From Dinoroseobacter sp. (GTDB lineage Bacteria; Pseudomonadota; Alphaproteobacteria; Rhodobacterales; Rhodobacteraceae), in assembly GCA_030066795.1 (NCBI GenBank), contig JASJAW010000019.1:1-64000 (forward strand): a stretch of 64,000 nt of DNA, read 5' to 3'. The number at the start of each line of letters is the position of its first letter. The stretch's first letter is position 1. The notes under the pieces are model-generated. The model made no database searches and was not told where the DNA came from. It worked only from the letters and a program-made list of their open reading frames with translations. A program made the position numbers and the translations under genes. Below are positions 45,455-61,908 of the stretch, piece after piece.

Positions 45455-46510
45455 TCAGCCGAAAAAACTGCGCCAAAGCGTCAGAACAATCAGGATGTGA
45501 ATTGCAGGGAAACCCCAGTATGTAACGTGCCAGTCGATCCTTTTGGCACGCTCTTCGTGGTGCTCGACCGCCATGCGCCGCAGCATGACGTTGTAGGCGA
45601 CTGTTACCGCGGCTGAGGCAAACATCGCCAGCATAAGCGCATCGAGGAAGGTCACATAGCCTAGCCGGGGCAGATCTCCCGATACTGCGAAATTGAACGC
45701 GATGAAGGCCAGCAGGTTCGCACCGGCAATGTCGATCCTGCGCCGGTACTCTTCGAGGAACAGGTTGGCCCAGGACACGGTGACCAGCAGCAGCAGCGGG
45801 ACGAAGATGCGTGTCCAGTAGTAGATCAGGTGACGGTCAGCGGTGAAAACGAGGGACAGGCGTGAGCTTTCCAAACCTGTCACACCACGGCTGGTGTCAA
45901 TTTCAGTCCAGACATCGCGAACGATCCACTCTTCCTCGCCAAGAGTAGAACCCATTCCGCTGTACTCTGGCAAGTCTTCGAAAACAAAGAAACTTTTCGG
46001 GTTGGCCATTAGCAGCCTGACATAGAATGTCTGGGTGTCAAAAGGGTACTGCCGAAAGTCAAAGTCAGGAGCCTGTAGGGTGGCCACAGTTTCTGCGACG
46101 TGGATGACATTACCTTCGCTGCTCCAGAAAACGCTACTGAGCTTGTCAAAGCTACGTCTTTGCAGGTTCTGAAACGTTCCTACCGGGGATGGAATCGAAC
46201 TTTCTCGGGCGAAAGAGACAAAATCGCTTGTGCTCAGAGAGCGGATCGCAGCGCCCACTTCTTCCGCATCGAAGGTAAGTTTGGGCTCGCTCCATTCGTA
46301 TCGCACGTCTACGACGATCGTGAAGTTTTCTTCCTTCTGGTTCACGTCGGTAATCTGGGTCACGTACAGCCCGGCGCGCACTGGAATGGGGGTTTCGGGC
46401 TTCACGGTTTCGGAGAGGCTTTCGAGGCTAAAGGTCGCCTCGTTCTGTGCGGATGCAGCGCAGGCAAACATGCAGAGCGAAATGAAAAGAAAAATGAACC
46501 GCACTTGCAA
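45455..46510 (-). CDS. Prokaryotic pentameric ligand-gated ion channel homologue
   Basis: This 351-residue protein has a signal peptide (ending near CAASAQ), an extracellular beta-sandwich and four membrane helices. [13 protein letters not shown] is the prokaryotic counterpart of the Cys-loop, with the conserved YPFD core and, as in GLIC and ELIC, no flanking cysteines. M1 starts [17 protein letters not shown], and M2 ([19 protein letters not shown]), M3 and M4 follow. It probably forms a pentameric channel of the inner membrane. It starts with TTG at 46510 (AAGG seven bases before) or GTG at 46504. The ligand is unknown. Confidence 0.82.
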
Positions 46511-47191: not shown

Positions 47192-47947
47192 CTAGTGCTC
47201 TTCGAAAATCCGCCCGCGCCCGCTGAGCTTGTCCTGGATGCCGGCCGCGCGCAGGGCGGCCCAGGCGCTCACAGTGTTGATTGCAAGAGCGGGTTTGTTC
47301 ATCCAGCGCTCTGCCTCGGCGCACACAGCTGCCCCTGCGAGATTGGTGCCAACCTGAACAAACGCTTCCACGTCAGGGCTGTCCATCGCCTGCAATTCTG
47401 CACGGATACGGCTTTCCGGCACTTGTGCGATCGCGCGCGGGCTGGGGCACTCCAGACCTTTTAGGGCAACCACGTCGAAGCCCGCTTCAGAGAGCCAGTT
47501 GCGCACTTGCTCATCGCCTTTTGGCATATGCGGGGTCAGCACCGCGATGCGGCTGACGCCAAACGCCCGCAGACCGGAGGCCACCGCGTCTGATCCGAGG
47601 ATCACCGGCACCCCCGCATGATCCGAGAGCTTCGTCTTGAGGTCTTCAGAGCCGTCCAGTCCGCCCCAGAAGGCTTCCAGTGCCACTCCCATTATCAGGC
47701 TGTCTACTCCGGCCGTCATAACCTGATCTGCGGCGACCTCGATCCCCGCGCGCATCGCCGCGACATGGTCGAGAAAATTGTCGGTCGAGATCTTCTTGTT
47801 GGAGATCGGAATGCGGCCAAGGTGAAAAGTGACACCCGGCACCCGCACTGCATCCGTTTCCGGTTGCACGATCGTGTTTGTCGAGGGGACTACAACTCCG
47901 ATTTTCTGCCGCGCACCAAGGGCATCGGGAGGTGTGTCACGCGTCAT
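47192..47947 (-). CDS. Asp/Glu racemase-superfamily enzyme, maleate isomerase/AMDase-like
   Basis: The ATG at 47947 (MTRDTPPDALGARQKIG) has AGGAA before it. The 251-residue protein begins KIGVVVPSTNTIVQPE, typical of the maleate isomerase and arylmalonate decarboxylase branch. The first catalytic Cys region is replaced by SLIMGVALEAFWGG without cysteine. In the second half CAEAERWMNKPALAINT holds a cysteine, but somewhat off the usual site. It overlaps the monooxygenase gene (ATGA). I infer a decarboxylase or cis-trans isomerase role, not a racemase, from its neighbours. Confidence 0.7.
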   Translation of the reverse strand: MTRDTPPDALGARQKIGVVVPSTNTIVQPETDAVRVPGVTFHLGRIPISNKKISTDNFLDHVAAMRAGIEVAADQVMTAGVDSLIMGVALEAFWGGLDGSEDLKTKLSDHAGVPVILGSDAVASGLRAFGVSRIAVLTPHMPKGDEQVRNWLSEAGFDVVALKGLECPSPRAIAQVPESRIRAELQAMDSPDVEAFVQVGTNLAGAAVCAEAERWMNKPALAINTVSAWAALRAAGIQDKLSGRGRIFEEH

Positions 47948-49161
47948 GATGCTTTCCTTTGCGTTTCTTCCAGTTTCCTCAGTCCGGTCAGAAGCGAGGC
48001 GTTCATAACCCACGCTTTATGCCGTGCCGGGTCGTCGCAGGTACCTTGCAATTCGGCTTTCGCCGCAGCCCTTTGCTCGGGCGTTTTCGCCTCAAGGCGT
48101 TTCTTGTTCTGAATGGTCTGCGCCTGAACGTAGTCCTTTGCGATCTGCCGGCGTTCGGCATCATAGGCGTCGAACAGGGCGTCCGCCTGGTGTGGCTCCG
48201 CCGTGGACTGAACGAGTTTTGCGGCCAGGTTCACGGCGTCATGGATACCGGAGTTCATGCCCAGCCCCCCGAGCGGATTGTTCACATGCGCCGCGTCGCC
48301 CGCAAGAAAGACCCGTCCTTTGCGGAACGCCGCGGCGACCCGCTGGTTCACGGCGTAAATGTTGCGATGTGATATGTCGGCGAGACCGAGGGTCGGCTCG
48401 AGCCCTGCCAGTTGCTCGGACACGTACTTGTCCGAAAGTGCGTCGATGCCCCTGTCGGATGCAGGCGCAGGGAAGACTGTGCGCCAAAGGCCCGGCGGCC
48501 CGTCATGTGGCACCTTGAAAAGCGCGCACCACTGGCTTGGGTCCAGCACATAGTTTCGCACCTGAAACCCACGCTGAAAGAAATCGTAGGGTGTTGTCAG
48601 GACCAGAAAGCGTTCTTCGTAGGTGAAGCCTTCGAAGGCGACACCAAGGCCCTTTCGGGTCGCACTGCGGCCTCCGTCGCAGCCCACCAGATAGTCTGCA
48701 TGCAGACTGCCTTCCCCTTCTGGCCCTCTGTACTGCAAGTTGACGCCTGTTGCGTCTTGCGTGAACCCGGTGACTTCCGTTGCCAAGCGCAAGGTGCCTG
48801 GGCGGAGCGCCTCGATGGCCTGCGCATTGGTATCCGCAACCTTGAATTGCTCGCATTGCAACGCAAAAGGGTGCGGGGTTTCTCCTTGCAAGCGCCCGTA
48901 GTCGAATTCGGCAATTACGCTGTCCGTTGCTCGATCTCGAAACTGAAAGACGGCCGCTTTCAGGCCCTTCGCAATGATTTCACGACCTGTTCCCAGTCCG
49001 TCCAGCATTTCCAGCGTCGGTGGCTGAAGCGTTGCAGCTCGCGGGTCTGCCGGGAGGCTGTCTGCCTGTTCGAATAAGGTTACGTCGATGCCGGCCTTGA
49101 CCAAGGCAAGCGCCACCGAGGTTCCAACCGGACCCGCGCCCGTGACAGCGACATGTGTCAT
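47944..49161 (-). CDS. FAD-dependent aromatic-ring hydroxylase (class A monooxygenase)
   Basis: This group A flavoprotein monooxygenase of the PHBH/MhpA type has 405 residues. The N-terminal VTGAGPVGTSVALAL binds FAD, LVGCDGGRSATRKGLG is the DG motif and FLAGDAAHVNNPLGGLGMN is the GD motif. It uses NAD(P)H and oxygen to hydroxylate an aromatic or heteroaromatic ring in the cytoplasm. The ATG at 49161 has AGGAGG five bases before it; the track start (49266) lies in the preceding gene. It sits between the molybdenum hydroxylase and the racemase-like gene, all overlapping by four bases. Confidence 0.85.
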   Translation of the reverse strand: MTHVAVTGAGPVGTSVALALVKAGIDVTLFEQADSLPADPRAATLQPPTLEMLDGLGTGREIIAKGLKAAVFQFRDRATDSVIAEFDYGRLQGETPHPFALQCEQFKVADTNAQAIEALRPGTLRLATEVTGFTQDATGVNLQYRGPEGEGSLHADYLVGCDGGRSATRKGLGVAFEGFTYEERFLVLTTPYDFFQRGFQVRNYVLDPSQWCALFKVPHDGPPGLWRTVFPAPASDRGIDALSDKYVSEQLAGLEPTLGLADISHRNIYAVNQRVAAAFRKGRVFLAGDAAHVNNPLGGLGMNSGIHDAVNLAAKLVQSTAEPHQADALFDAYDAERRQIAKDYVQAQTIQNKKRLEAKTPEQRAAAKAELQGTCDDPARHKAWVMNASLLTGLRKLEETQRKAS

Positions 49162-51464
49162 CCTGCCTCCTGTATGTTGTTTATGGCTTGCAGTGCAGAC
49201 CAGACGCGGTGCGGGCTCGCGGGCATCTGCAAATGCCGTGCGGCCTTCGGGCCAATGGCATTGCAAACCGCGTTCATGCAGGCCGGCAGCGCGCCAACTG
49301 TGCCACTTTCCCCTGCGCCCTTAACGCCAAGCGGGTTCGCGTCGGTCGGGGTCGGGCAGTGCAGGACCTCAATAGAACACAGGTCGCTTGCGCGTGGCAT
49401 TGCATAGTCCATCAATGATCCGGATAGCAGCGCGCCGTGGTCATCATAGACGATCCGCTCCATGAGGGCTTGCCCGAGCCCTTGGGCGACGCCGCCATGA
49501 ACCTGCCCTTCCACCAAAAGCGGGTTAATCACGGTCCCCACATCGTCGGCGACGGTATAGGCCAGCAGGCGGACCGCGCCAGTTTCCGGGTCAACTTCGA
49601 CTTCCGCAATATGGGCCCCATTCGGGAAAGTGCCTGCATCGGTCGGTACAAACGCCTCCGCGACATAGGTTTTTCCCGTGCGGCGTGAGATGTCTTCGAG
49701 CGTGATCGTCAGGTCGGTTCCGGCAATTCGATACACGCCCCGGTCGCAGGTGACGTCAGCCTGGTCCACTTCGAGAAGGTCGGCCGCGTCCTCATGCGCT
49801 TGAGCCAGTACGTCACGGCTCGCCACATTCATCGCTGCGCCGATCGCCCCCATGGTGCGGGAGCCGAACGTCCCAACGCCTTTGGCAACCTCTGCGGTGT
49901 CGCCTGCAACAACCGTGACCGTGCCCTGCCAACCCAGATAGTGATCCGCAACTTGTGACAGAGCGGTTGCGTGTCCCTGACCCGCGTCTCCGGACCCCAC
50001 GCGCAATTCCAATCCCTCGGGCGCCACAGTGATTTTGGCAAACTCCGGCAACTGCGCTCCTTTGGGGCCGCCACCCGCAGGTTCGATCGCGCAGGCAATC
50101 CCGAACCCGCGCAGCATGCCACGCGCCGCAGAAGCCTGCTTTCGATCTTCAAAACTGTTGACGTTTGCTGCTTTCAGCGCGGCGCGCAGAGCGGCGGGGA
50201 AGTCACCGCTGTCGTAAGTGAAGCCAAGCGGCGTGTCCCAGGGCAGCCTCTCGGGAGGGATCATGTTGCGCAGTCGGAGTTCGATCCTGTCACGTCCCAG
50301 GGTGTCTGCGGCAAGGTCGACCATCCGCTCCATAACGTAGATCGCTTCGGGCCGCCCGGCGCCGCGATAGGGCGCCATATGAACGCTGTTCACGTGGACG
50401 CCGCGCATAATTGCGTGGATCACAGGCGTGCGATAGACGCCGACCAGCCCCGGCAGGTTCGAGGTCATCGGGTGGCTGGCCATCTGGCCAAACTGAGCTC
50501 CGATCGGTGCGTAGCCGTCCACCTGTAGTGCCAAAAAGATCCCGTCTTTATCGAGTGCCAACGCGACATCGACTGACTGCTCGCGCGAAGCCGTATCTGA
50601 CAGGAACGCATCGCTCCGCGTGGCTTGCCAGCGAACAGCGCGCCCTGTCGCCCGTGCAGCCAGAAGTGCCAGCGCATCTTCGGGGAAAGCCCCGTTGCGC
50701 ATGCCGAAAGAGCCGCCCGTGTTGGTTTTGCGAACTCTGATCCCATCGGGCTCCACGCCCAGAACCTGAGCCAGTTCGGTCTGTACCCGATGTGGCGCTT
50801 GCGTGCCGGTGTAAAGCGTCATCTGGCCGTCCGGATCGCAGATTGCCATGCCACCTCTTGGCTCCAAGGTGACGGCCGCGACCCGGCTGATCTCTATCCG
50901 CGTGCGAATGAGGTGATCCGCCTGTGACGCGATAGCATCAAAGCCCTCGCGGGACCCAAGCTCGTAGGAAAACGAGACGTTGCTTTCGTGATCAGGCCAG
51001 ACCCTCGGAGATCCTTCTTCTGCACCTTTCCGGGCATCGGTGACGACAGAGCTTTCCTCAACCTCCAGCCACACGGCTTCTGCCGCATCGAGAGCTTGTT
51101 CTTTGGTCTCGGCCACAACGATCGCCACGGGTTCGCCGACCCAGGTCACGCGGTCCTTTGCCATTGGGAAGAACGGCGTTGCCTGAACCTCGCATCCCTT
51201 CGGAACATAACGCACGGGAAATGGGTGCAGGTTCTGCTGATCCTGACCACCCAAAACATGAACAACGCCCGCCATGCCGCGCGCTGTGTGAAAATCAAGC
51301 GTAGTGATACGACCCGCCGGGTAGGGGCTGCGCACGACTTCCATCCAAAGTGAATTTGCGACAGCTACGTCTGCGATGAACTGCCCGTGTCCGCGTACCA
51401 AGCGTCCGTCTTCATCCCGGATTTGGGCGCTTCCAAACCGCGATTTATTTCGCTCCATGCGCAT
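49158..51464 (-). CDS. Xanthine-dehydrogenase-family molybdopterin large subunit
   Basis: This 768-residue large subunit of a molybdenum hydroxylase (CoxL/XdhB type) shows YTGTQAPHRVQTELAQVLG and TGGSFGMRNGAF, with the active-site Glu in VKGAGESGTVGALP. The loop PYRGAGRPEA equals the form II signature (AYRGAGR) rather than that of true CO dehydrogenase (AYRCSFR). It hydroxylates a heterocycle or aldehyde. Its iron-sulfur and FAD-binding partner subunits are not next to it or anywhere in the window. The TRAP transporter precedes it by two bases and the monooxygenase follows with overlap. Confidence 0.82.
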   Translation of the reverse strand: MRMERNKSRFGSAQIRDEDGRLVRGHGQFIADVAVANSLWMEVVRSPYPAGRITTLDFHTARGMAGVVHVLGGQDQQNLHPFPVRYVPKGCEVQATPFFPMAKDRVTWVGEPVAIVVAETKEQALDAAEAVWLEVEESSVVTDARKGAEEGSPRVWPDHESNVSFSYELGSREGFDAIASQADHLIRTRIEISRVAAVTLEPRGGMAICDPDGQMTLYTGTQAPHRVQTELAQVLGVEPDGIRVRKTNTGGSFGMRNGAFPEDALALLAARATGRAVRWQATRSDAFLSDTASREQSVDVALALDKDGIFLALQVDGYAPIGAQFGQMASHPMTSNLPGLVGVYRTPVIHAIMRGVHVNSVHMAPYRGAGRPEAIYVMERMVDLAADTLGRDRIELRLRNMIPPERLPWDTPLGFTYDSGDFPAALRAALKAANVNSFEDRKQASAARGMLRGFGIACAIEPAGGGPKGAQLPEFAKITVAPEGLELRVGSGDAGQGHATALSQVADHYLGWQGTVTVVAGDTAEVAKGVGTFGSRTMGAIGAAMNVASRDVLAQAHEDAADLLEVDQADVTCDRGVYRIAGTDLTITLEDISRRTGKTYVAEAFVPTDAGTFPNGAHIAEVEVDPETGAVRLLAYTVADDVGTVINPLLVEGQVHGGVAQGLGQALMERIVYDDHGALLSGSLMDYAMPRASDLCSIEVLHCPTPTDANPLGVKGAGESGTVGALPACMNAVCNAIGPKAARHLQMPASPHRVWSALQAINNIQEAG

Positions 51465-51466
51465 CT

Positions 51467-52786
51467 CTAAAGCCTCAGTTCCGGCAACCAGAGCGCCAGT
51501 GCAGGGACCGCAATGAGTGCCATCAGCAGAATAAGGTCACAGATCAGATAGGGCGCAGCCGCGCGGACGATGGTCCAATACGTCGTTCCCCTCGGGGCCA
51601 CGCCCTGCATGACGAATAGGAGCAGGCCGAAGGGGGGTGTCGTTCCGCTCATTTCAATCGCCAAAAGCATAACGAGCCCAAACCAGATAGGATCAAATCC
51701 GATGGCTTGCGCGATGGGGAAGAAGATCGGGATCGTGAGCAACATCATCGAGATCGCGTCCACGAACATGCCAAGGATCAGCAGCACGACAAACATGATC
51801 AGGAGCATCGTGATGGGTTCAAAATCATAGGACGTCGCCCAACGGATCATGCCCGAGGTCGCGCCTGAGAAGGCCAAAACCTGACTGAAGGTTTTCGACG
51901 CGATGATGATGAAGAACACCATGACGGTGACGCGCAAAGTGCCCTCGAGCGATTTTGCGACCATGTCCCAGCTGAACCGTCCGTAGAGGATCGACAAGAC
52001 AAGAACCGAAAGCACACCGAATGCGGCTGCTTCCGACGGGGTCGTGATGCCAAGAAGGATCAGACCCACAACGCAGAAGACCACCAGTGACATCGGTAGA
52101 ATATAGGTACAAATCAGTCGGATCTTTTCCCCGAAAGGGGCGGTTTCGACGTCATAGGCCGGTGCTGCATCGGGGTTGCGCTTGAGCTGCAACCAGATGG
52201 TTGCGGTGTAGAGCAGCGCCAGAACAAGGCCGGGCAGGACCCCTGCGAGCAAAAGGTCCGCAATGCTGATCTGGGCGATGGAACCGAGCAATACTGCCAA
52301 GGTCGACGGGGGGATTAACAATGCCAGTCCGCCGGATCCGATGATCGGGCCGATCGACATGTGGCGCTGGTAGTTGCGCTCCTCCATCTGCGGAAGCAGC
52401 AGACCGCCCATCATCGCAGTATTGGCCATATTGGACCCGGACAGCGCGGCAAAAATCGTTCCGCAGAGAACGGAGATATAACTCAGGCGCCCGGTCGACT
52501 TGCCCATGGATCGGTCGAGTGTCTCGATGATCTTCAAGGCGATCCCGGAATGGAAAAAAAGGTTCCCCATTAGGACAAACATCGGAACGGTCACCAATAC
52601 GAAGCTCGAAACAGCTTCGCCGGTATTGGCGACCAGTTGCTCCACGCCGACCAGCCCGCCCATGAAGATAAACGCGCCAATGAGGTTCGCGATGAGAAAG
52701 GCAAAGGCGACAGGCACGCACAACGCCATGAGCCCGATCACCATGCCCAGCATAAGAAGGGCCGCTTCCCACCATTCCATCAGCAT
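51467..52786 (-). CDS. TRAP transporter 2, large permease subunit (DctM)
   Basis: This DctM-type permease has 439 residues and about 12 helices. The N-terminal MLGMVIGLMALCVPVAFAFLIANLIG and the motif ALSGSNMANTAMMGGLLLPQMEERNY are typical of the family. It follows dctQ by three bases and precedes the molybdenum hydroxylase gene by two bases, so the two are co-transcribed. It imports the substrate of the module, presumably a carboxylate, in symport with sodium. Confidence 0.88.
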   Translation of the reverse strand: MLMEWWEAALLMLGMVIGLMALCVPVAFAFLIANLIGAFIFMGGLVGVEQLVANTGEAVSSFVLVTVPMFVLMGNLFFHSGIALKIIETLDRSMGKSTGRLSYISVLCGTIFAALSGSNMANTAMMGGLLLPQMEERNYQRHMSIGPIIGSGGLALLIPPSTLAVLLGSIAQISIADLLLAGVLPGLVLALLYTATIWLQLKRNPDAAPAYDVETAPFGEKIRLICTYILPMSLVVFCVVGLILLGITTPSEAAAFGVLSVLVLSILYGRFSWDMVAKSLEGTLRVTVMVFFIIIASKTFSQVLAFSGATSGMIRWATSYDFEPITMLLIMFVVLLILGMFVDAISMMLLTIPIFFPIAQAIGFDPIWFGLVMLLAIEMSGTTPPFGLLLFVMQGVAPRGTTYWTIVRAAAPYLICDLILLMALIAVPALALWLPELRL

Positions 52787-52789
52787 GGG

Positions 52790-53296
52790 TCAGAGGCTCT
52801 CCTGGTCGGAGGTGATGCCCTTGTAGAGACTGTCACCGGTGATCAGGACGCGGGTGAACTGTACTGTGCAAAGCGCAAAGCAGATCACCACCGGGACGAA
52901 TAGAAGCCACCGGTCGAGGAAATTCGCCCGCATGTCGCCAACGCCGATATTCTGAATGGTGATGGGAACCGCGAATACCGTGACGATCGCGCAGGCCACG
53001 GCGCACAGGAAAACAACGATCTTCTCGATAGGGCCACTTATGCTTTGCGGCACAAGCGTGCGCAGCGCCTCCATCGAGACGTGGCCTTTCTCTCGCAGCA
53101 ACCACGGCGCCGCCAGCGCCGTGGAATACAGCAGCGCGTATTCGGTGATGGCTACCACCCAGTTGACTTGAAAGACCCGCAGAGTGCGCGTCGTGACATC
53201 GTAAACGATAGACACGAACATGAACGGGATGATCAGCGCTGCGAGTATCGCAAGCGTGTTCAGAAGCCGGTCGAAACCGTGCCAGAACCTGTCCAT
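52790..53296 (-). CDS. TRAP transporter 2, small permease subunit (DctQ)
   Basis: This four-helix DctQ protein has 168 residues. It starts MDRFWHGFDRLLNTLAILAA and has the family segment ALAAPWLLREKGHVSMEAL. The gap to the binding-protein gene is 29 bases and to dctM three bases. It is expected to form the membrane complex of TRAP transporter 2. Confidence 0.85.
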   Translation of the reverse strand: MDRFWHGFDRLLNTLAILAALIIPFMFVSIVYDVTTRTLRVFQVNWVVAITEYALLYSTALAAPWLLREKGHVSMEALRTLVPQSISGPIEKIVVFLCAVACAIVTVFAVPITIQNIGVGDMRANFLDRWLLFVPVVICFALCTVQFTRVLITGDSLYKGITSDQESL

Positions 53297-53325
53297 CCTA
53301 CGGGCCTTTCGGTCTTCTTGCCTGT

Positions 53326-54321
53326 TTAGCTGCCGTTCGCCTTGTCGACGATTGCGCGATACTCGGCGGCCTTGTCCTCGCCAAGGTTGGAGGCCACGTT
53401 GACCCAGAAGGTGTCCTGGAACGCCGCGGTGATCTCTGCCTCGCCCGCACCCGTCAGCACGACATCCTGTACGCCAGCCGCCGCGAGCGCTTCGGTGTTT
53501 TCTGCCTCCAAGGCTTTGGCGGCATCGTAGGCCAGCATCTCGTGCTTCTCGATCATTTCCATCAGGTAGCTGCGCTGTTCTTCGGTCAGGCCGTCAAACT
53601 TCGCTGCATTCGCCGCGATGATCGTATTGCCCTGACGCCAAGTGGGAAAAATCCGGTACTTGAGGAAGTCTTGCCAACCCGCAGAACTTACACCAATTGT
53701 TGTGAATCCGATCCCTTCGACAAGGCCGCGCTCAAGCGCCGTGTAAATGTCGCCCGCCGGTACATCGACACGTGCGATGCCAAGAGCTTGATACATGGGA
53801 TCGTAAGATGCACCACCGCGGATCTTGAGATCCGTCATGTCCATGGTGCCGTCGTCGTCAATTTTGGGCTCGGTGATGGTGTAGAACTGGAAGTTGTACC
53901 CCGTGCCCATCGCCCCAAGGAATGCAACGCCTGCACGCTCACGCGTTCCAGCATCGATGGCTTCGTGCAGGCCGGCAGCGCGCAGCTTGTCAGCCGGAAC
54001 AGACGCCGCATCAAGCGGGGTCAGTTCGGGGATCTGGCGCTGATAATACCCTGCGGGTCCGAAATAAAGGTCGATGATCCCGCGCGAGACCGCGTTCATC
54101 TGTTCGTTTCGCGGTAACGCTTCGGTGCCGCCCCGCAGGTCGATCTGAAGAATGCCAGCTCCATTTGCATTCACATCGTCCACGAATGCGAAATAGCTCT
54201 GCATCAGATCGTTTGTCGCTGGCAGTGAATACACCGCGCTCAGGCGAGCTTCTTCCGCAAGGGATGGTGTCGCGACAATAATTGCCGTCGCTGCGGCCAA
54301 GAACTTGGCATGCATAGTCAT
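53326..54321 (-). CDS. TRAP transporter 2, periplasmic binding protein (DctP)
   Basis: This solute-binding protein has 331 residues with a signal peptide (FLAAATAIIVATPSLA). The usual DctP features are present: SRGIIDLYFGPAGYY, the ligand-binding arginine region TDLKIRGGASYDPM and ALERGLVEG. The start could be the ATG at 54321 or 54315. It heads the operon of six genes that ends at 47192. The ligand is not deducible, but the downstream enzymes point to an aromatic or N-heteroaromatic carboxylate. Confidence 0.85.
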   Translation of the reverse strand: MTMHAKFLAAATAIIVATPSLAEEARLSAVYSLPATNDLMQSYFAFVDDVNANGAGILQIDLRGGTEALPRNEQMNAVSRGIIDLYFGPAGYYQRQIPELTPLDAASVPADKLRAAGLHEAIDAGTRERAGVAFLGAMGTGYNFQFYTITEPKIDDDGTMDMTDLKIRGGASYDPMYQALGIARVDVPAGDIYTALERGLVEGIGFTTIGVSSAGWQDFLKYRIFPTWRQGNTIIAANAAKFDGLTEEQRSYLMEMIEKHEMLAYDAAKALEAENTEALAAAGVQDVVLTGAGEAEITAAFQDTFWVNVASNLGEDKAAEYRAIVDKANGS

Positions 54322-54793: not shown

Positions 54794-55798
54794 TTACTCT
54801 CCGCTGACAGCGCCGCTTATGAGCTGATAAGCCAACAAATCACGCATATTGCGAGGATCGCGCAACAGTGGCATCAACGATTTTGGCAAGGCCTCTCGCG
54901 CTTGAGTGGCCCGGGTCTCTATCGCAATAGCCGTCTCCAGCGTGACAAACTTGAACCTTAACGGCGCCGAAGCGGTCGCTTGCGCGACCCGTGGCAGGTC
55001 AGATGGCAAGACCGAACCGATCCTGGGATACCCGCCAACTGTTTGACATTCCGACATCAGGACAAACGGGGTGCCGTCTCCGGTGATCTGGATATCACCT
55101 GGCACAATAACTTCTGAGAGGATGGTGAGCCCCGCCTCACTGGCAAAGCCGTGTCCATCGAATGTTAACTTCGCGCCCATCCGGTTCGACCGAACGTCTC
55201 TTCTGAATTCGGTCGCCTCAAAGCGTGCGATCTCGACTGACTCAAACAAATCGGTCTGCAGACTGGGGACCACCCGCACGACACCGCCTTCGAAACGTGG
55301 CGCCGGGTCCAGCGTCATCCCCACTTGGCTGCGCGGGTCTGGGCCAATGGGGAGCGCGGTGCCTGTCTCTATTGCGCCGCTGATCCCAGCTGCGATATGT
55401 GCGCTCTGCGCCCCCATGATTTCCGGCAGTAGAAGCCCGCCGCCGAGGGACAGGTAGCCGAAATTGCCAGCTTTGGCAGATCCAATTGTGAGCGTGGCAC
55501 CGGCCGGCAACAGGTGGCTTGCATTCCACCGAAGTCTCTCGCCATCCACCGCGCACTGCATGGGGGCCCCGGTCAACGCGATGCGCAAGTCCTCGGTGGC
55601 CTCGAAAACCCCACCAACCGATGCCATTTCAATCGCGGCGCTGTCTGGTTCCTGTCCAAGCAGTGCTGCCCCCTCTGCCAGCGCCAGCGGGTCCGCCGCG
55701 CCCCCCTGTGAAACACCATAGCTCAGATAGCCACGTCGCCCGAGATCCTGCACAGTCAACCCGGGTGCCGAACGTTTGACGCACAGGGACCGGCTCAT
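54794..55798 (-). CDS. pxpC: 5-oxoprolinase subunit C-like (PxpC/KipA)
   Basis: This 334-residue protein of the biotin-dependent carboxyltransferase-like (KipA/PxpC) family is the ATP-dependent partner that, with PxpB and PxpA, opens 5-oxoproline to glutamate. The N-terminal PGLTVQDLGRRGYLSYGVSQGGAADPLAL and the core SECQTVGGYPRIGSVLPSDLPRVAQ are family landmarks. It overlaps pxpB by four bases. PxpA (LamB/YcsF) is not in the window, so the enzyme may need a distant PxpA or may do another reaction. Confidence 0.85.
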   Translation of the reverse strand: MSRSLCVKRSAPGLTVQDLGRRGYLSYGVSQGGAADPLALAEGAALLGQEPDSAAIEMASVGGVFEATEDLRIALTGAPMQCAVDGERLRWNASHLLPAGATLTIGSAKAGNFGYLSLGGGLLLPEIMGAQSAHIAAGISGAIETGTALPIGPDPRSQVGMTLDPAPRFEGGVVRVVPSLQTDLFESVEIARFEATEFRRDVRSNRMGAKLTFDGHGFASEAGLTILSEVIVPGDIQITGDGTPFVLMSECQTVGGYPRIGSVLPSDLPRVAQATASAPLRFKFVTLETAIAIETRATQAREALPKSLMPLLRDPRNMRDLLAYQLISGAVSGE

Positions 55799-56520
55799 GG
55801 CAGCGCCTCTTGCACAGCTCCGCCCTTCGGATTGTCTGCGAGTGCTGCCAGTTCCGCGGTGGACACGGGGTCGAAAATCACTTCGTCGCCCGGTTTCAGA
55901 AGGAAGGGCATGTCCGCGTCAGGTTGAAAGAGGCGTACACGGGTCTGAGCAATATGGCGCCAGCCTGTAGGGGTTCGATTGGGAAAAAGAACAAGCTGCC
56001 GGATCGCAACGCACAGCCCGCCCTGCGGGACCTCCGCGGTCAGCTTGGATTGGCGGGGAATGTCCCAATTCTCGGGTAATTCTCCGAGGTACGGCATCCC
56101 GGGAGCGAAGCCGATTGTCTGTACGCGCACAGGCTGATGGGTTAGTGCCGCGATGGCTTCGGTTTCGGTCATTCCGGCCAATGCCGATGCCTCGGCGAGT
56201 TGCGGACCCAGCTCTCCGCCGAACACTGCAGGTATCCGCCAGAGATTGCGCCCTTCCGGGGGCGGCGCGGCATACCAATCGCGGGTGGCCAGTATGGTGG
56301 ACAGCGCTTTTTTCATCTGTGCGTGCGGCACGACAAGTGGGTCGAACCTGACATAGGCGGAGACAAGAGAGGTCGACGCTTCCGTCACGCCATCGAGCTG
56401 CGCGTCGCTGACCGCCTTGTGAAAGGCCAGTGCGGCTCGGTTCGCAGCGTCGTTCAGAGTGTCTCCGAAGGTCACAAGCATTCCGTCGTAACCCAGGTTT
56501 CTGATGACGGGCGTGTCCAT
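55795..56520 (-). CDS. pxpB: 5-oxoprolinase subunit B-like (PxpB/KipI)
   Basis: This 241-residue protein of the KipI/PxpB type is the usual partner of PxpC. GFAPGMPYLGELPENWDIPRQSK is the conserved region. The later VPQGGLCVAIRQLVLFPNRTPTGW differs from the common VPAGSVGIAGAQTGIYP form, which hints at a different subgroup. It follows the DUF2848 gene by nine bases and overlaps pxpC. Confidence 0.83.
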   Translation of the reverse strand: MDTPVIRNLGYDGMLVTFGDTLNDAANRAALAFHKAVSDAQLDGVTEASTSLVSAYVRFDPLVVPHAQMKKALSTILATRDWYAAPPPEGRNLWRIPAVFGGELGPQLAEASALAGMTETEAIAALTHQPVRVQTIGFAPGMPYLGELPENWDIPRQSKLTAEVPQGGLCVAIRQLVLFPNRTPTGWRHIAQTRVRLFQPDADMPFLLKPGDEVIFDPVSTAELAALADNPKGGAVQEALP

Positions 56521-56529
56521 CGATCGGCC

Positions 56530-57183
56530 TCAGGCAATCACCGGTAGAACGCGGACAGAGTAGCCGAGCGATATGGTGCGGTTCAGTATGGGATCGATCA
56601 GCGACATTCTGTAGGTGGTTGCCGGGCGCACACCGCCAATGGCACCAAGGGTTCCGCACAGCATCGCGCCGCCGTCGGCCAAGCCCGAGCGGTCAATGAG
56701 CTCGGCCAGGGGCCGGATACTGGCCAGCGTACCGTCTTGATAGCGCACGGTCTTGCCGTCCTCATCAACATCGCATCGCAGAACCAGTTGATCGAGATGG
56801 TCTTCAATTTCGACCCAGGGCCATAGCATTCTCGAAACAGGTTTCGGGCAGACTTGCTTAGAGGCGGCGACCGAGACCGTCTCCAGTGCGCGGTCAGTGT
56901 GGTCTGAGCCGAGCCCGAGCCATAGTTGCCCGCCACTTCGGATCACAAGTGGCTCGACTTCACCCGATGTCTCCGTGCCGACCACCTGTATCGCCGTATC
57001 GTGGCAAAGAAGACCGCTGGACACTCGATAAAAGAGCGGAACGGTCGATGGTGGGGCGACCCCAAGTGCGGCCAACTCCTCGATATGGTGGTCGACCGCG
57101 GCACGATCGCGGCCGGTCCAACCAGCCACGATCACATCCGTGATTTCTTGCAAAAGGGGTCCGTTCGGGGTGTTGAAGTGCAT
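56530..57183 (-). CDS. DUF2848 family protein
   Basis: This 217-residue protein has GPLLQEITDVIVAGWTGRDRAAVDHHIEELAALGVAPPSTVPLFYR, which I recognise as DUF2848. That family is of unknown function and is related in fold to fumarylacetoacetate hydrolase-type proteins. It often lies near TRAP transporters and amide or acid catabolism genes. Here it is between dctM and pxpB, with three and nine bases between genes, so it is co-transcribed. No catalytic role is established. Confidence 0.72.
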   Translation of the reverse strand: MHFNTPNGPLLQEITDVIVAGWTGRDRAAVDHHIEELAALGVAPPSTVPLFYRVSSGLLCHDTAIQVVGTETSGEVEPLVIRSGGQLWLGLGSDHTDRALETVSVAASKQVCPKPVSRMLWPWVEIEDHLDQLVLRCDVDEDGKTVRYQDGTLASIRPLAELIDRSGLADGGAMLCGTLGAIGGVRPATTYRMSLIDPILNRTISLGYSVRVLPVIA

Positions 57184-57186
57184 GCT

Positions 57187-58476
57187 TCAAGGCTCGCTGA
57201 GCACCGAGGGGAGATACAGTGCGATTGAGGGGAACGCGATCAAAAGAGCAACCATGATCAGCATCGCGACCACATAGGGAATTGCACCAACCATCACCTC
57301 GCTCATCTTGCCGGATTTGCGCGCGCCCTGAACAACATACAGATTCAGTCCGACAGGCGGCGTGATAAGCGCCATTTCGATCAGCACAATCATCAGGATG
57401 CCGAACCAGATCGGATCGAACCCTTGTGCCACCACCAGCGGCACGATGATCGGGATGGTTACCACCATCAGCGACAGCGTCTCGATGAAGAACCCCAGCA
57501 CGATGTAAATCAGAACCACCACGAATATCAGCCCCATGGGCGACAGGCCCAACCCGTCAAGAAGGTTTTGCAACTCCTGTCCCAACCCAGCCGAGGCAAG
57601 CGTAAAATTTAAGAACGATGCACCGATGACCACCAGCATGATCATGGACGTGATTTTGACGGTTCCGAGAATACTTTCCGCAAACATGCGAACGCTGACC
57701 CCACCGAACACAGCGGCAATTGCGACCGCGCCGGCAACCCCAACGGCAGCGGCTTCGGTCGGTGTGGCCCATCCTTTGTAAATCGTGCCGATAATGATCC
57801 CGAACAGGAGCACGATCGGGACCAGTTGGACCAGAGCGCGCATCATCTCGGAAATCGTGAAGATGCGGCGTGTCCCGCCCAGTTCCGGACGAAGCAGGCA
57901 GATAACGACCGTGATGGCCATGAAGCCCAAGGCGAGGGCGATGCCCGGAATGAGGCCAGCCAGAAAGAGTTGCGGGATCGAGGTCTGGGTAAGAAATCCG
58001 TAGACGATCAGGTTGATTGAGGGCGGGATCATGATGCCAAGCGTGCCACCGGCGGCGATGGCTCCGGAAAAAAGCCTTGGATCGTATCCAAGCTTTTCGG
58101 CCTGCGGCATGGCAACGGTCGCAACGGTTGCCGCCGTGGCTACAGACGATCCCGATGTCGCGGAGAACATCGTCGCGGTTGCGACATTCGCATGCACAAG
58201 GCCGCCCGGTAGCCAACTTACCCATCGATCAAGCGCCGCGTATGTCCGTGCAGCAATTCCTGAGCGCACCAGGATCTCGCCGAGCAGAACAAAAAATGGA
58301 ATGGCGATCAGGGTGGCGTTGTTGGAGGTTGACCAGACAAGATTTCCGAGCCCTTTGATTAACGGAAACGGGCTGAAAAAGGTATCTACACCGAAGCCCA
58401 GAAGGAACAAAACGATCCCGACCGGAATTGACAGCGCGAGGAGCCCCAACAGGCCAGTGGCAATGGCCCAGATCAT
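57187..58476 (-). CDS. TRAP transporter 3, large permease subunit (DctM)
   Basis: The start is at 58476 (MIWAIATGLLGLLALSIPVG), overlapping dctQ by four bases; the track start at 58626 is inside dctQ. The 429-residue protein has about 12 helices with the family features ATSGSSVATAATVATVAMPQAEKLGYDPRL and ITPPVGLNLYVVQGA. It forms the membrane channel of the transporter with DctQ. Confidence 0.88.
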   Translation of the reverse strand: MIWAIATGLLGLLALSIPVGIVLFLLGFGVDTFFSPFPLIKGLGNLVWSTSNNATLIAIPFFVLLGEILVRSGIAARTYAALDRWVSWLPGGLVHANVATATMFSATSGSSVATAATVATVAMPQAEKLGYDPRLFSGAIAAGGTLGIMIPPSINLIVYGFLTQTSIPQLFLAGLIPGIALALGFMAITVVICLLRPELGGTRRIFTISEMMRALVQLVPIVLLFGIIIGTIYKGWATPTEAAAVGVAGAVAIAAVFGGVSVRMFAESILGTVKITSMIMLVVIGASFLNFTLASAGLGQELQNLLDGLGLSPMGLIFVVVLIYIVLGFFIETLSLMVVTIPIIVPLVVAQGFDPIWFGILMIVLIEMALITPPVGLNLYVVQGARKSGKMSEVMVGAIPYVVAMLIMVALLIAFPSIALYLPSVLSEP

Positions 58477-59021
58477 TTGACGAGGTCCTCTTCCCCAAAG
58501 CAGCCAACCGCCTCTTCTGCCTTGTCGAAACGGCCTTTGAGCACCATCGTCGCGGCTGCGATGAATGTCAGCCATGCCATGAGCGCGAACCAGATCCATC
58601 CAGCAAACCAAGGGGCCTGAACCCATGCAAGCGGTGTCTCAAGCGGTGTGTTCGCGCGTGAAGAGTTGGCCAGCGAACGTTCAAGCACAGGCCAGCATTT
58701 GTAGGCGATGAGCGTGACGGTGCCGGTAAGCACCAGCATCGAGAAAAGATCGAAAAAGGCGCGCCCGCGCTGACCTGCACGCCCCCTGAGGATATCGATC
58801 CGGACATGGCCCAGTTCGAGCAGCGTGAAGGCCATGCCCCATGACGTGGCAATGGCCATCACGTAACCCGAGATCTCATCCGTCCCGCCGAAAGAAGACC
58901 CCACCTGACGCAACAGGATATCGATCAGCACGATCAATGCACATCCCAGCAACAGCACACCCGTCAAGAGTGCAATACCGTGGTTCAGGCGGCGCAGGTG
59001 GTGAAGCAGGCGGTCTTCCAT
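58473..59021 (-). CDS. TRAP transporter 3, small permease subunit (DctQ)
   Basis: This 182-residue, four-helix DctQ protein has the motif TLLELGHVRIDILRGRAGQRG. It starts 23 bases after the binding-protein gene and overlaps dctM by ATGA. It is part of the same operon as pxpB and pxpC. Confidence 0.86.
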   Translation of the reverse strand: MEDRLLHHLRRLNHGIALLTGVLLLGCALIVLIDILLRQVGSSFGGTDEISGYVMAIATSWGMAFTLLELGHVRIDILRGRAGQRGRAFFDLFSMLVLTGTVTLIAYKCWPVLERSLANSSRANTPLETPLAWVQAPWFAGWIWFALMAWLTFIAAATMVLKGRFDKAEEAVGCFGEEDLVK

Positions 59022-59044
59022 GGGTCTTCTTTTCGCACCGGGCG

Positions 59045-60079
59045 TTAGCTGCCGATCTGGACGCCGACAACCTCGCCGACACTGGCATTCCAGCGCTCGG
59101 CCCAGTCACCACCAGCGCGCTCTGCCCAATCTGGCAGGACCTGACCGACAAGTACGCTGCGTGCTTTCTCGAAATCAGCATCCGACACTTCGACAAGGGT
59201 CATGTTGCGCGCGTCGCCCGCCGGGCAGTCGCCATTTCCGGTCAGGCAAGCGATATCGTTGACCAGTGCATCCTGTGCGCTGGCCCAGGCCGGGGCTTCG
59301 AACTCGGCCGCGACCTGCGCGGTGATCAGTTCCTGGGTTGCGGCATCAAGACTGTTCCACTTGTCCATGTTCATCGCTGTGACCACACTGTCCCAGCCCC
59401 CAAGCGGGATGGGCATCAGGTGAGTTGATACTTCCCACCAGCCCGCGGAATAACCCGAACCCGCGCCTGTAACAGCGCAATCGACCACGCCTTTCTGAAG
59501 CGCACCCGGCACTTCCGAAAAGCCGACATTCACACCCTCAGCGCCCAGAGCTTCGAGGAATTTCGCAGTCATACGGCCCGATGCGCGAACCTTCAGGCCT
59601 TCGAGATCAGCAAGTTCAGATACCTCCGCGTTGCAGAAGACGACCTGCGGCGGGTAGGGCGCGATGGCTAGCACCTTGCTGTTGAAGCGCGCCGCGTAGA
59701 TATCCTCGACCATCGGACGAGCGGCATCCACCATTGCCCGTGCCTCGTCGGCGGTCAGGGCCAGAAGCGGCACATCAAGGCCCTCCAGCTCCGGGGCGTC
59801 GGCCACGGCGTAATCGGCCACGGTCATGGCGACGTCATAGACGCCATCGCCCAGCAGGCGGAAGACATCGCCCACACCAAGGTTCATCTGGTTGTGGGTT
59901 GTCAGCGAGACACTGATATTCCCGCCAGATGCCGCTGGCAGTGTCTCGCCCCAGAAAGGTGCCTCATACTGCTTGTGAAGCGGCAGGCCGGACCAGCTGC
60001 CTACAACGGACAGGTCCTCGGCCAGCGCAGGTGTGGCCAAGGCAGTGCTGGCGATCAGAATGCTCAGAGCATATTTCAT
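59045..60079 (-). CDS. TRAP transporter 3, periplasmic binding protein (DctP)
   Basis: This 344-residue binding protein has a signal peptide (MKYALSILIASTALATPALA) and the ligand-arginine region DLEGLKVRASGRMTAKFLEALG. AAGGAG precedes the ATG at a good distance. It lies 10 bases after the DUF1445 gene. Two cysteines (CLTGNGDC) near the C-terminal part may form a disulfide. Its ligand may be 5-oxoproline, D-glutamate or a related amide acid, suggested only by the operon. Confidence 0.85.
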   Translation of the reverse strand: MKYALSILIASTALATPALAEDLSVVGSWSGLPLHKQYEAPFWGETLPAASGGNISVSLTTHNQMNLGVGDVFRLLGDGVYDVAMTVADYAVADAPELEGLDVPLLALTADEARAMVDAARPMVEDIYAARFNSKVLAIAPYPPQVVFCNAEVSELADLEGLKVRASGRMTAKFLEALGAEGVNVGFSEVPGALQKGVVDCAVTGAGSGYSAGWWEVSTHLMPIPLGGWDSVVTAMNMDKWNSLDAATQELITAQVAAEFEAPAWASAQDALVNDIACLTGNGDCPAGDARNMTLVEVSDADFEKARSVLVGQVLPDWAERAGGDWAERWNASVGEVVGVQIGS

Positions 60080-60089
60080 GGAAATCTCC

Positions 60090-60920
60090 TTATGGGACTT
60101 TTGTCAGGTTCTCAGTTTTCGGGGATAACACCGGAACTTCGGCGTCCTCTGCGACGTCGGTGATCAGCATGTGCCCGGGTTTATGGGTGATGCAAATCGG
60201 CATTTGTGCAGCTTCAAGGGCAACTTGCGGAGTAACCCCGCAGGCCCAGAACACGGGTACATGATCATCCGGAACGGGCGCAGCATCGCCCCAATCGGGA
60301 CGCGTGACATCATGAATGCCGATTTCCTTCGGCTCGCCCCAGTGTACTGGGCCGCCATGCGCAAGTGGATAGCACTTCGAAATCTCGGCCGCTTCTGCGA
60401 CCCGATGTTTCGGAACGGCGCGCATAGAGACCACCATTTTCCCTCGGAACGGCCCGGCCGGTACCGTCTCGATACTGGAACGGAACATCGGTACGGTCTT
60501 ATCGTTGTCGATATGCCAGAGGCTGATGCCAGCTTCTTGAAGGGCATGCTCGAAAGTGAACGAACATCCCAGCGCGAACACGACAAAATCGTCCCGCCAG
60601 ATATCGCTGATGTCGTCGACCGTCTCCGTGAGGTGCCCGTCGCGATACACGTTATAGGCCGGAACATCCGTGCGGATGTCGATGTCGTGTCCCATGGTGA
60701 ACATGAACGGGTTTCCGGTGTCAGAAACACCCGTCAGCGGACAGGGCTTGGGGTTGCGCTGACAGTATCGCATGAAGTCGAGTGCGTACGCTTCTGGCAT
60801 AATCGCCAAGTTCGCCTGAAGATGTCCACGCCCGAGCCCGGCTGTGTGAGAGCGATAGGTCCCTGTGCGGATCGCGGTACGAACATCCGCCAGACGACTG
60901 TTCTTCAGTGCCTCGTACAC
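60090..60920 (-). CDS. DUF1445/D-glutamate cyclase-like hydro-lyase
   Basis: The product is a 276-residue protein of the UPF0317/DUF1445 family, related to D-glutamate cyclase, which makes 5-oxo-D-proline from D-glutamate. VFALGCSFTFEHALQEAG and VPVFWACGVTPQVAL are conserved. The GTG at 60920 is the likely start, preceded by AGGGGGA. It is the first gene behind the LysR gene and the first of an operon with TRAP transporter 3 and PxpB/PxpC. A role in producing or using 5-oxoproline is attractive but not shown. Confidence 0.83.
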   Translation of the reverse strand: MYEALKNSRLADVRTAIRTGTYRSHTAGLGRGHLQANLAIMPEAYALDFMRYCQRNPKPCPLTGVSDTGNPFMFTMGHDIDIRTDVPAYNVYRDGHLTETVDDISDIWRDDFVVFALGCSFTFEHALQEAGISLWHIDNDKTVPMFRSSIETVPAGPFRGKMVVSMRAVPKHRVAEAAEISKCYPLAHGGPVHWGEPKEIGIHDVTRPDWGDAAPVPDDHVPVFWACGVTPQVALEAAQMPICITHKPGHMLITDVAEDAEVPVLSPKTENLTKVP

Positions 60921-61008: not shown

Positions 61009-61908
61009 TTATACCAAGTCAGACTCGGCATATCTTTTTGCAACCTCGAGCGCGAGTGCCGCCGCGGTTTCGTTGAGATGGCTTTTGGGTTCTCGCAAAA
61101 AGGATGCGGTGAACTGCAGTGGGCTTGGAACCCAGCCGGGGTCAAACTCTATAATACGACCGGCGCGCACATATTCCCGGCCAAGAGCACGAGGCAAAGC
61201 GGCCACGCCCATATCCGCTTCGACAAGCCGGAAACATGCGGATAGCGACGTAGATGGAAAAAGCGCGGCATCAGGGCCTAACCGTTCGAACAACTCCTCT
61301 TTCAACTCGCGAAAAGGGCGTGTGTTTCGCGCGTAGCTTAGGACAGGTCGCTGTAGTAGTTCGATCGCTGACAGTGAGGGGTTCCTCTTGGCGGAGGTAT
61401 ACCAGGCAAGGTCGAAACCCGGTAGAACGATGTTGTCCGTAGAGTATTCAGAGATGGGACCCAGCAGAATCGCAAGGTCTATTTCTCGGCTGAGCAGCGC
61501 TTCGCGCAGATCGAGCGATACGTCCACTTTCAGCTCGATCTCGATCCGAGGATAGGCCGTGTGGAGCTGTGACACCAGCTCGGGTAACCAGCATTGGGCC
61601 ACCGTTTCCGAAGCACCAATGCGCAACCGGCCTTCTACGCCGCTTGGATCGACGACATCGCGCTGCACCAGTTCTACGAGGTGCTCGAACTTTTCTGCAT
61701 GGGCAAGCAGCAGTTCACCCCGTTTCGTCAGTTTCATCCCACCCGATGTTCGTTCGAACAGCTCACAGGCGAGGGCGCGTTCAAGGTTCTTGATCCGCGC
61801 GGTAATTGCGGGTTGGGTCAGCCCTAATGCGACAGAAGCACGGTGCAGGCCGCCCAGTCGTACAACGGTCAGAAAGGTTCGCATCTGGTCAAGTGTGAAT
61901 CGCGACAT
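61009..61908 (-). CDS. LysR-type transcriptional regulator
   Basis: This 299-residue regulator has an N-terminal winged helix (MSRFTLDQMRTFLTVVRLGGLHRASVALGLTQPAITARIKNLERAL) and a C-terminal effector-binding domain of the substrate-binding protein type. It lies 88 bases upstream of the DUF1445 gene and reads in the same direction. It is the obvious candidate regulator of the 60920-54794 operon. Which inducer it senses is not visible. Confidence 0.87.
   Translation of the reverse strand: MSRFTLDQMRTFLTVVRLGGLHRASVALGLTQPAITARIKNLERALACELFERTSGGMKLTKRGELLLAHAEKFEHLVELVQRDVVDPSGVEGRLRIGASETVAQCWLPELVSQLHTAYPRIEIELKVDVSLDLREALLSREIDLAILLGPISEYSTDNIVLPGFDLAWYTSAKRNPSLSAIELLQRPVLSYARNTRPFRELKEELFERLGPDAALFPSTSLSACFRLVEADMGVAALPRALGREYVRAGRIIEFDPGWVPSPLQFTASFLREPKSHLNETAAALALEVAKRYAESDLV

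Follow-up and report, generated by a model that had tools for sequence, protein, structure and literature searches.

A putative lactam uptake and degradation operon in Dinoroseobacter belongs to a conserved proteobacterial cassette with an exchangeable terminal gene

Gene content and organization of the operon

A 64,000-nucleotide stretch of DNA from Dinoroseobacter sp. (positions 1 to 64,000 of contig JASJAW010000019.1, assembly GCA_030066795.1; hereafter 'the window') contains a single minus-strand operon, extending from position 61908 down to 54794, in which genes for a TRAP transporter and for proteins of the DUF1445 and DUF2848 families are combined with genes for the 5-oxoprolinase subunits PxpB and PxpC. 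The genes, in the order lysR - DUF1445 - dctPQM - DUF2848 - pxpB - pxpC, are as follows.

61009..61908, minus strand: LysR-type regulator (Pfam HTH_1 and LysR_substrate), the first gene upstream of the cassette and found at the same place in most related cassettes
60090..60920, minus strand: DUF1445/UPF0317 'putative hydro-lyase' (Pfam D-Glu_cyclase; PF07286, E 1.7e-61)
59045..60079, minus strand: DctP, TRAP solute receptor (PF03480, E 3e-19)
58473..59021, minus strand: DctQ, TRAP small membrane subunit (PF04290, E 2e-19)
57187..58476, minus strand: DctM, TRAP large membrane subunit (PF06808, E 1.4e-81)
56530..57183, minus strand: DUF2848, predicted metal-dependent enzyme of the fumarylacetoacetate-hydrolase (FAH) superfamily (PF11010, E 3e-75)
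55795..56520, minus strand: PxpB, 5-oxoprolinase subunit (CT_C_D; PF02682, E 5e-51)
54794..55798, minus strand: PxpC, 5-oxoprolinase subunit (CT_A_B; PF02626, E 2e-62)

These eight genes are tightly packed, with gaps of 3-23 bp or 4-bp overlaps between neighbours and 88 bp between lysR and the gene that follows it; the start of dctM was placed at 58476 by coding score. The named genes lie far above the respective Pfam cut-offs, at coordinates that agree with those of a first-pass annotation made from the sequence alone, and the LysR gene belongs to the operon even though it had been omitted there. That annotation had described a TRAP transporter, DUF1445, DUF2848 and PxpBC in one operon that lacks PxpA, a description borne out by the Pfam matches, by the intergenic gaps, and by a tblastn search of the window with two PxpA sequences, in which neither a pxpA gene nor a pxpA remnant was found (chance-level matches, best E 0.67). 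The possibility of a decayed pxpA behind pxpC was rejected on the basis of the same search.

The remaining subunit is encoded elsewhere in the genome

Clustering of pxpA, pxpB and pxpC is usual, but not essential, for a PxpABC 5-oxoprolinase, and the three genes are not clustered in the window. A profile search of the source genome, a 3.93-Mb draft of 57 contigs that is about 95% complete, identified one PxpA (E 2e-93), encoded by an orphan gene on another contig (C55:1870-2583). The protein clears the NCBIfam threshold for the PxpA subfamily (340 v 226 bits) and retains every family-invariant position except for one conservative change; the Tropicimonas (L097) PxpA, encoded next to PxpBC, clears that threshold as well. 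In a PxpA tree (these trees being quick searches in which some branches are open), the C55 protein falls within the clade that holds the PxpA proteins of loci with this type of PxpBC, with a support of 96 in the Shimodaira-Hasegawa-like approximate likelihood-ratio test (SH-aLRT). The orphan gene is convergent with a gene for a two-domain fumarylacetoacetase homologue (L006:472-2625, contig C55), and the orphan pxpA of two Silicimonas genomes adjoins a CLC chloride channel gene instead.

The window PxpB and PxpC retain, respectively, 8 of 8 and 19 of 19 invariant residues of the compared set. The PxpC is closest to that of Tropicimonas (65% identity), in which the cassette carries PxpB-PxpC-PxpA, and clusters with that of a Silicimonas (L201) and with Salipiger PxpBCA copies. 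Both window proteins miss the NCBIfam equivalog cut-offs (106 v 145 bits for PxpB, 153 v 500 bits for PxpC); because the Tropicimonas PxpC, which has an adjacent pxpA, also falls below that cut-off (165 v 500 bits), they appear to represent a divergent subgroup rather than a different enzyme.

A detached pxpA is found in several related genomes. In Silicimonas (G392), the cassette contig stops inside pxpB (L103), the sole PxpC starts approximately 110 bp from the end of another contig (L201), and the sole pxpA is an orphan (L183), which looks like the same split arrangement as in the window, provided that the two contig ends are presumed to join across the gap. The gene is likewise detached from pxpBC at L099 and L130, with a pxpA elsewhere in both genomes, and the genomes of both Salipiger loci also contain pxpA elsewhere.

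The source genome contains two PxpBC pairs and one DUF2848: the second pxpB-pxpC pair (L009:10503-13260 and L043:1-258, on contigs C19 and C4) is very divergent, is interrupted by a contig break, and is followed by the acetate kinase gene ackA, and its PxpC forms a remote long branch in the tree. A different Pxp locus, ordered pxpA - biotin carrier - biotin carboxylase - pxpB - pxpC, occurs in Allgaiera (L187:2942-7192) and, as judged by gene order, in Pseudodonghicola (L193:2887-7157), which suggests a biotin-dependent variant of these proteins.

Co-occurrence of these genes was counted across 385 genomes of the class, by statistics that ignore kinship, and in draft genomes, where failure to find a gene says little, least of all at split loci. 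Both PxpA and PxpC are encoded by 79 of them, PxpA only by 4, PxpC only by 4 and neither by 298 (urea-carboxylase fusions excluded), and PxpA is present in 23 of the 24 that encode DUF2848 and PxpC, the exception (G007) being an assembly of 810 contigs with 7% contamination. Twelve of the 14 cassette-bearing genomes encode PxpA and PxpC; of the two that encode neither, one has an OPLAH-type enzyme (L087) and the other an amidase (L115). DUF1445 is found in 37 of the 48 DUF2848 genomes (Fisher p 3e-20, phylogeny-naive), with the two genes no more than 12 kb apart in 15 sampled genomes, and it is likewise associated with PxpA and PxpC (odds ratio about 5, phylogeny-naive).

A conserved cassette with an exchangeable terminal gene

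The neighbourhoods of DUF2848 genes were compared at 40 places in the class genomes and on 80 named contigs, using profile searches and a gene caller based on simple codon scoring, which was adopted because calling of the longest open reading frame was wrong in these GC-rich genomes; the named neighbourhoods were taken around the DUF2848 matches nearest to the window and do not form an even sample. Cassettes ordered LysR-DUF1445-DctP-DctQ-DctM-DUF2848 occur repeatedly, among others in Rhodobacteraceae, Roseibium/Labrenzia, Thalassospira and Paracoccus; Rhizobium, Bordetella, Castellaniella and Psychromonas have a form that lacks the leading DUF1445, and in Marinomonas the DUF1445 gene is divergently oriented. 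The genes lysR-DUF1445-dctPQM-DUF2848 form a conserved proteobacterial cassette, new here, with an exchangeable terminal gene.

The gene beside DctM or DUF2848 is variable, and is most commonly an amidase (PF01425). That slot is occupied by PxpBC with PxpA in seven neighbourhoods (L045, L077, L093, L094, L095, L097 and L112), by an amidase and PxpBC in L129-131, by an amidase and PxpBCA in L136, and by a 1,200-residue Hydantoinase A/B fusion of OPLAH type in L087, L127 and L153 (in L153 after DUF2848); in L135, PxpBCA lies directly upstream of lysR. DUF1445, DctM, DUF2848, PxpB, PxpC and PxpA are all found together in six neighbourhoods, and L136 adds the amidase. A creatinase-like M24 protein is encoded alongside some cassettes (L052, L090, L096).

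When these arrangements are placed on a tree of DctP receptors, at least 7 changes of the terminal slot are seen. The window receptor falls in a clade of 10 receptors (SH-aLRT 95) in which the slot holds PxpABC, PxpBC, an OPLAH-type enzyme (twice) or an amidase, and main-clade receptors share 58-87% identity with the window DctP. That the receptor stays nearly constant while the hydrolase is swapped is an argument for one common task of the hydrolases on one common compound. Judging from the cassettes in which an OPLAH-type enzyme takes the place of PxpABC (L087, L127), the step that they share would be the ATP-dependent opening of a lactam.

DUF2848 and DUF1445

An AlphaFold2 model of DUF2848, built with 56 homologues (predicted local distance difference test 96, predicted template-modelling score 0.91), has the fold of the FAH superfamily: all 22 Foldseek matches in the PDB at E<=1e-3 belong to that superfamily, the best being Cg1458 (8.5e-9). 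Residues H33, E36, E75, E77, D94 and K109 are invariant in the 56 homologues, and hhalign pairs G-E75-V-E77 with the metal-binding E-x-E of FAH proteins, S-D94-H-T-D-R with N-D (the D also being metal-binding), H33-I-E-E36 with the H-x-x-E of the lid, and K109 with the conserved K; by this alignment of sequences, the likely metal and catalytic residues are kept. That alignment depended on the breadth of the input, since a diverse DUF2848 alignment (A1) matched the FAH proteins of the same genome at E 3.8e-5 (71%) and a narrow one (A2) at only 2%. The sole profile match in the PDB was the FAH member HpcE (E 0.71), and the Pfam FAA_hydrolase model does not recognise the window DUF2848. Enzymes of this superfamily act on 2-oxo acids via a metal-bound enolate, which makes it probable that DUF2848 depends on a metal and hydrolyses, hydrates, decarboxylates or isomerises a 2-oxo acid or a tautomer of one. 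The fold of PxpA differs from that of FAH enzymes, and DUF2848 is no PxpA look-alike. A literature search found no paper that names DUF2848, and no recorded function for the family came to light. Some other DUF2848 genes adjoin HpaB-type flavin monooxygenase genes (L084:7388-9347, also with a cupin, and L072:6958-8427), hinting at a second role of the family in aromatic degradation.

The window DUF1445 protein exceeds the cut-off of NCBIfam PRK05463, a 'putative hydro-lyase' (397 v 324 bits); its structurally solved relatives 2pif and 3db9 carry no assigned function, and no function for bacterial DUF1445 was found on record. The first-pass annotation had related it to D-glutamate cyclase, and the domain is indeed present; the Pfam name, however, derives from a two-domain animal protein in which DUF1445 is joined to DUF4392 and which was assayed as a whole (PMC5339696), and it is DUF4392 that carries the described metal site, an acidic Mn site present in DUF4392 on its own (PMC5132392). 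DUF4392 was not found in 14 genomes, in a search that gave no match in any control genome either.

The receptor and its probable ligand

A fold search with a model of the window DctP placed the pyroglutamate receptor DctP7 (2pfy) first, by a small margin, and the pyroglutamate-specific 6wgm fourth; lactate, ferulate and ectoine receptors score almost as well. A single-sequence search favoured 2pfz and 2pfy, the pyroglutamate receptors DctP6 and DctP7, respectively, of Bordetella pertussis. A firm ligand assignment from DctP was dropped, since the sequence, profile and fold searches disagree. In Bordetella genomosp. 1 (L141), a DUF2848-amidase operon adjoins a TRAP set with an orthologue of DctP6 (2pfz; E 3e-178), and is also near an OPLAH-type gene. 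The linkage of the cassette to two unrelated 5-oxoprolinase-type enzymes favours 5-oxoproline; that compound or a closely similar lactam is the probable substrate.

Neighbouring genes

The operon is followed, after a 472-bp gap, by another TRAP module, part of a minus-strand operon (47192-54321) that encodes a second DctPQM, a molybdenum subunit of the xanthine dehydrogenase family, an FAD monooxygenase and an arylmalonate-decarboxylase/EutA-like protein. It resembles a module for aromatic or heteroaromatic acids; no obvious FAD or Fe-S hydroxylase subunits adjoin its molybdenum subunit. Further downstream (45455-46510, minus strand) lies a gene for a protein with the ligand-binding domain of pentameric ligand-gated ion channels (PF02931, E 2e-10).

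Proposed function and alternative explanations

We consider it somewhat probable (roughly 55%) that the operon serves the uptake and degradation of a small carboxylated lactam, and that its PxpBC is completed by the orphan PxpA; the most straightforward interpretation is a normal PxpABC 5-oxoprolinase with split genes. The LysR regulator would sense the compound or a product, DctPQM would import the lactam, most likely 5-oxoproline or a close derivative, and PxpB and PxpC would join PxpA in trans to create an ordinary ATP-dependent 5-oxoprolinase, which would activate the lactam with ATP and open it to yield glutamate or a substituted glutamate. DUF2848, an FAH-fold and probably metal-dependent protein, and DUF1445, a putative lyase, probably catalyse steps that prepare for or accompany this reaction (stereo-inversion, tautomerisation or ring chemistry, for example), with no replacement of PxpA.

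Several observations weigh against this explanation. The receptor profile best matches aromatic-acid receptors (5i5p/5iga), with pyroglutamate receptors behind; the second, distant pxpBC pair could use the same PxpA; DUF1445, DctM and an amidase occur without Pxp in 28 of 116 neighbourhoods, the amidase being the commonest terminal gene, and an ATP-free amidase is a poor substitute for a 5-oxoprolinase; and L085 and L086, close relatives of the window cassette, have no adjacent hydrolase. In addition, PxpABC and a transporter suffice for growth on 5-oxo-L-proline in Corynebacterium glutamicum (PMC13274462), which would leave DUF1445 and DUF2848 without an obvious job if that compound were the substrate. 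Because this sufficiency and the aromatic-acid match both count against plain 5-oxoproline, a related compound with additional steps in its breakdown is no less likely than 5-oxo-L-proline, the leading candidates being 5-oxo-D-proline/D-glutamate and 2-hydroxy-5-oxoproline, the ring form of 2-oxoglutaramate. A more far-reaching proposal, to which we give somewhat less than even odds, is that the cassette encodes a catabolic route, not described before, for some lactam other than plain 5-oxo-L-proline (5-oxo-D-proline or 2-hydroxy-5-oxoproline, for example), with DUF2848 as a new FAH activity and with PxpABC, OPLAH-type enzymes and amidases as interchangeable last steps.

The first-pass annotation had proposed a route for D-glutamate, 5-oxoproline or another lactam in which DUF2848 or DUF1445 replaces PxpA. 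Uptake and degradation of 5-oxoproline or another lactam fits, the slot being filled by PxpABC or an OPLAH-type enzyme in relatives; the replacement of PxpA, and with it a new PxpBC-based lactamase, is very improbable. The absence of pxpA from an operon that includes DUF2848 and DUF1445, and the similar arrangements at L099 and L130, would agree with such a replacement, but pxpA is present in this genome and in those of L099, L130 and the two Salipiger loci, related operons hold all of the genes, with DUF2848 and DUF1445 beside a complete PxpABC or beside an amidase without any Pxp, PxpA and PxpC are rarely found one without the other (79 genomes v 4 and 4), and DUF2848 has a fold other than that of PxpA. 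A pathway starting from D-glutamate or 5-oxo-D-proline, in which DUF1445 would cyclise or open the D form, DUF2848 would invert or isomerise it, and PxpABC would yield L-glutamate, is unlikely, given that FAH enzymes are not known to act as racemases and that the amidase-only cassettes would be left over. The co-occurrence of DUF1445 with PxpA, PxpC and DUF2848 and its identity as one domain of the animal cyclase (PMC5339696) speak for such a start, whereas the assay of cyclase activity used the two-domain protein, the described metal site lies in DUF4392 (PMC5132392), and that domain was not found in the 14 genomes searched, where no control matched either.

A still more doubtful candidate is a 2-oxo amide present mainly in the lactam form (2-oxoglutaramate/2-hydroxy-5-oxoproline), the ring of which would be opened by PxpABC or an OPLAH-type enzyme, the open form cut by the amidase, and the 2-oxo acid acted upon by DUF2848. 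It would account jointly for the FAH fold and for the exchange of lactamase and amidase beside a nearly unchanged receptor, but there is no direct evidence of the compound, DUF1445 has no clear place, and the opening of 2-hydroxy-5-oxoproline is not known to need ATP. The equilibrium between these two forms does favour the lactam (PMC9806585). A substrate that has nothing to do with 5-oxoproline, such as an aromatic or other amide-bearing acid, with PxpBC recruited for another carboxyltransferase-like reaction, would be in keeping with the aromatic-acid ligands of the best PDB profile matches, with the character of the next downstream operon, and with the HpaB-type neighbours of some other DUF2848 genes; we regard it as improbable, since in several lineages the cassette is linked to complete PxpABC and to OPLAH-type enzymes, and since the structural search ranks pyroglutamate receptors first and fourth.

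A pxpBC pair without a neighbouring pxpA does not imply a PxpA-free enzyme, which is a likely misreading of such loci. Many marine and soil proteobacteria carry the cassette, and the FAH type of DUF2848, together with the swap among two unrelated ATP-dependent lactamases and an amidase, reduces the possible chemistry of the cassette to a small testable set of compounds.

Comparison with known systems

PxpABC was reportedly described as the prokaryotic 5-oxoprolinase by Niehaus and colleagues in 2017. Similar to the pxpTABC operon of C. glutamicum (PMC13274462), the window combines PxpB and PxpC with a transporter and a regulator, conserved residues are intact and a PxpA is encoded in the genome; in contrast to that operon, pxpA is detached, the transporter is of the TRAP type rather than an NRAMP-like PxpT, the regulator is a LysR rather than a GntR protein, and DUF1445 and DUF2848 are extra. 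The window DctP shares the TRAP type with the pyroglutamate receptors DctP6 and DctP7 (2pfz, 2pfy) and 6wgm, with DctP7 as its top structural match, at about 20% identity. DUF1445 (PF07286) is shared with animal D-glutamate cyclase (DGLUCY, C14orf159), which has in addition a DUF4392 domain that was not found here (nor in any control genome). DUF2848 resembles members of the FAH superfamily, such as Cg1458, 2-keto-3-deoxyarabinonate dehydratase and maleylpyruvate hydrolase, in fold and in the aligned E-x-E, D, K and HxxE positions, but is only 12-18% identical to them and lies outside the Pfam FAA_hydrolase model. Finally, the ATP-dependent lactamases of the OPLAH/hydantoinase A-B type (5-oxoprolinase, caprolactamase), although unrelated in sequence to PxpABC and absent from the window operon, occupy the same slot in the cassettes at L087 and L127.

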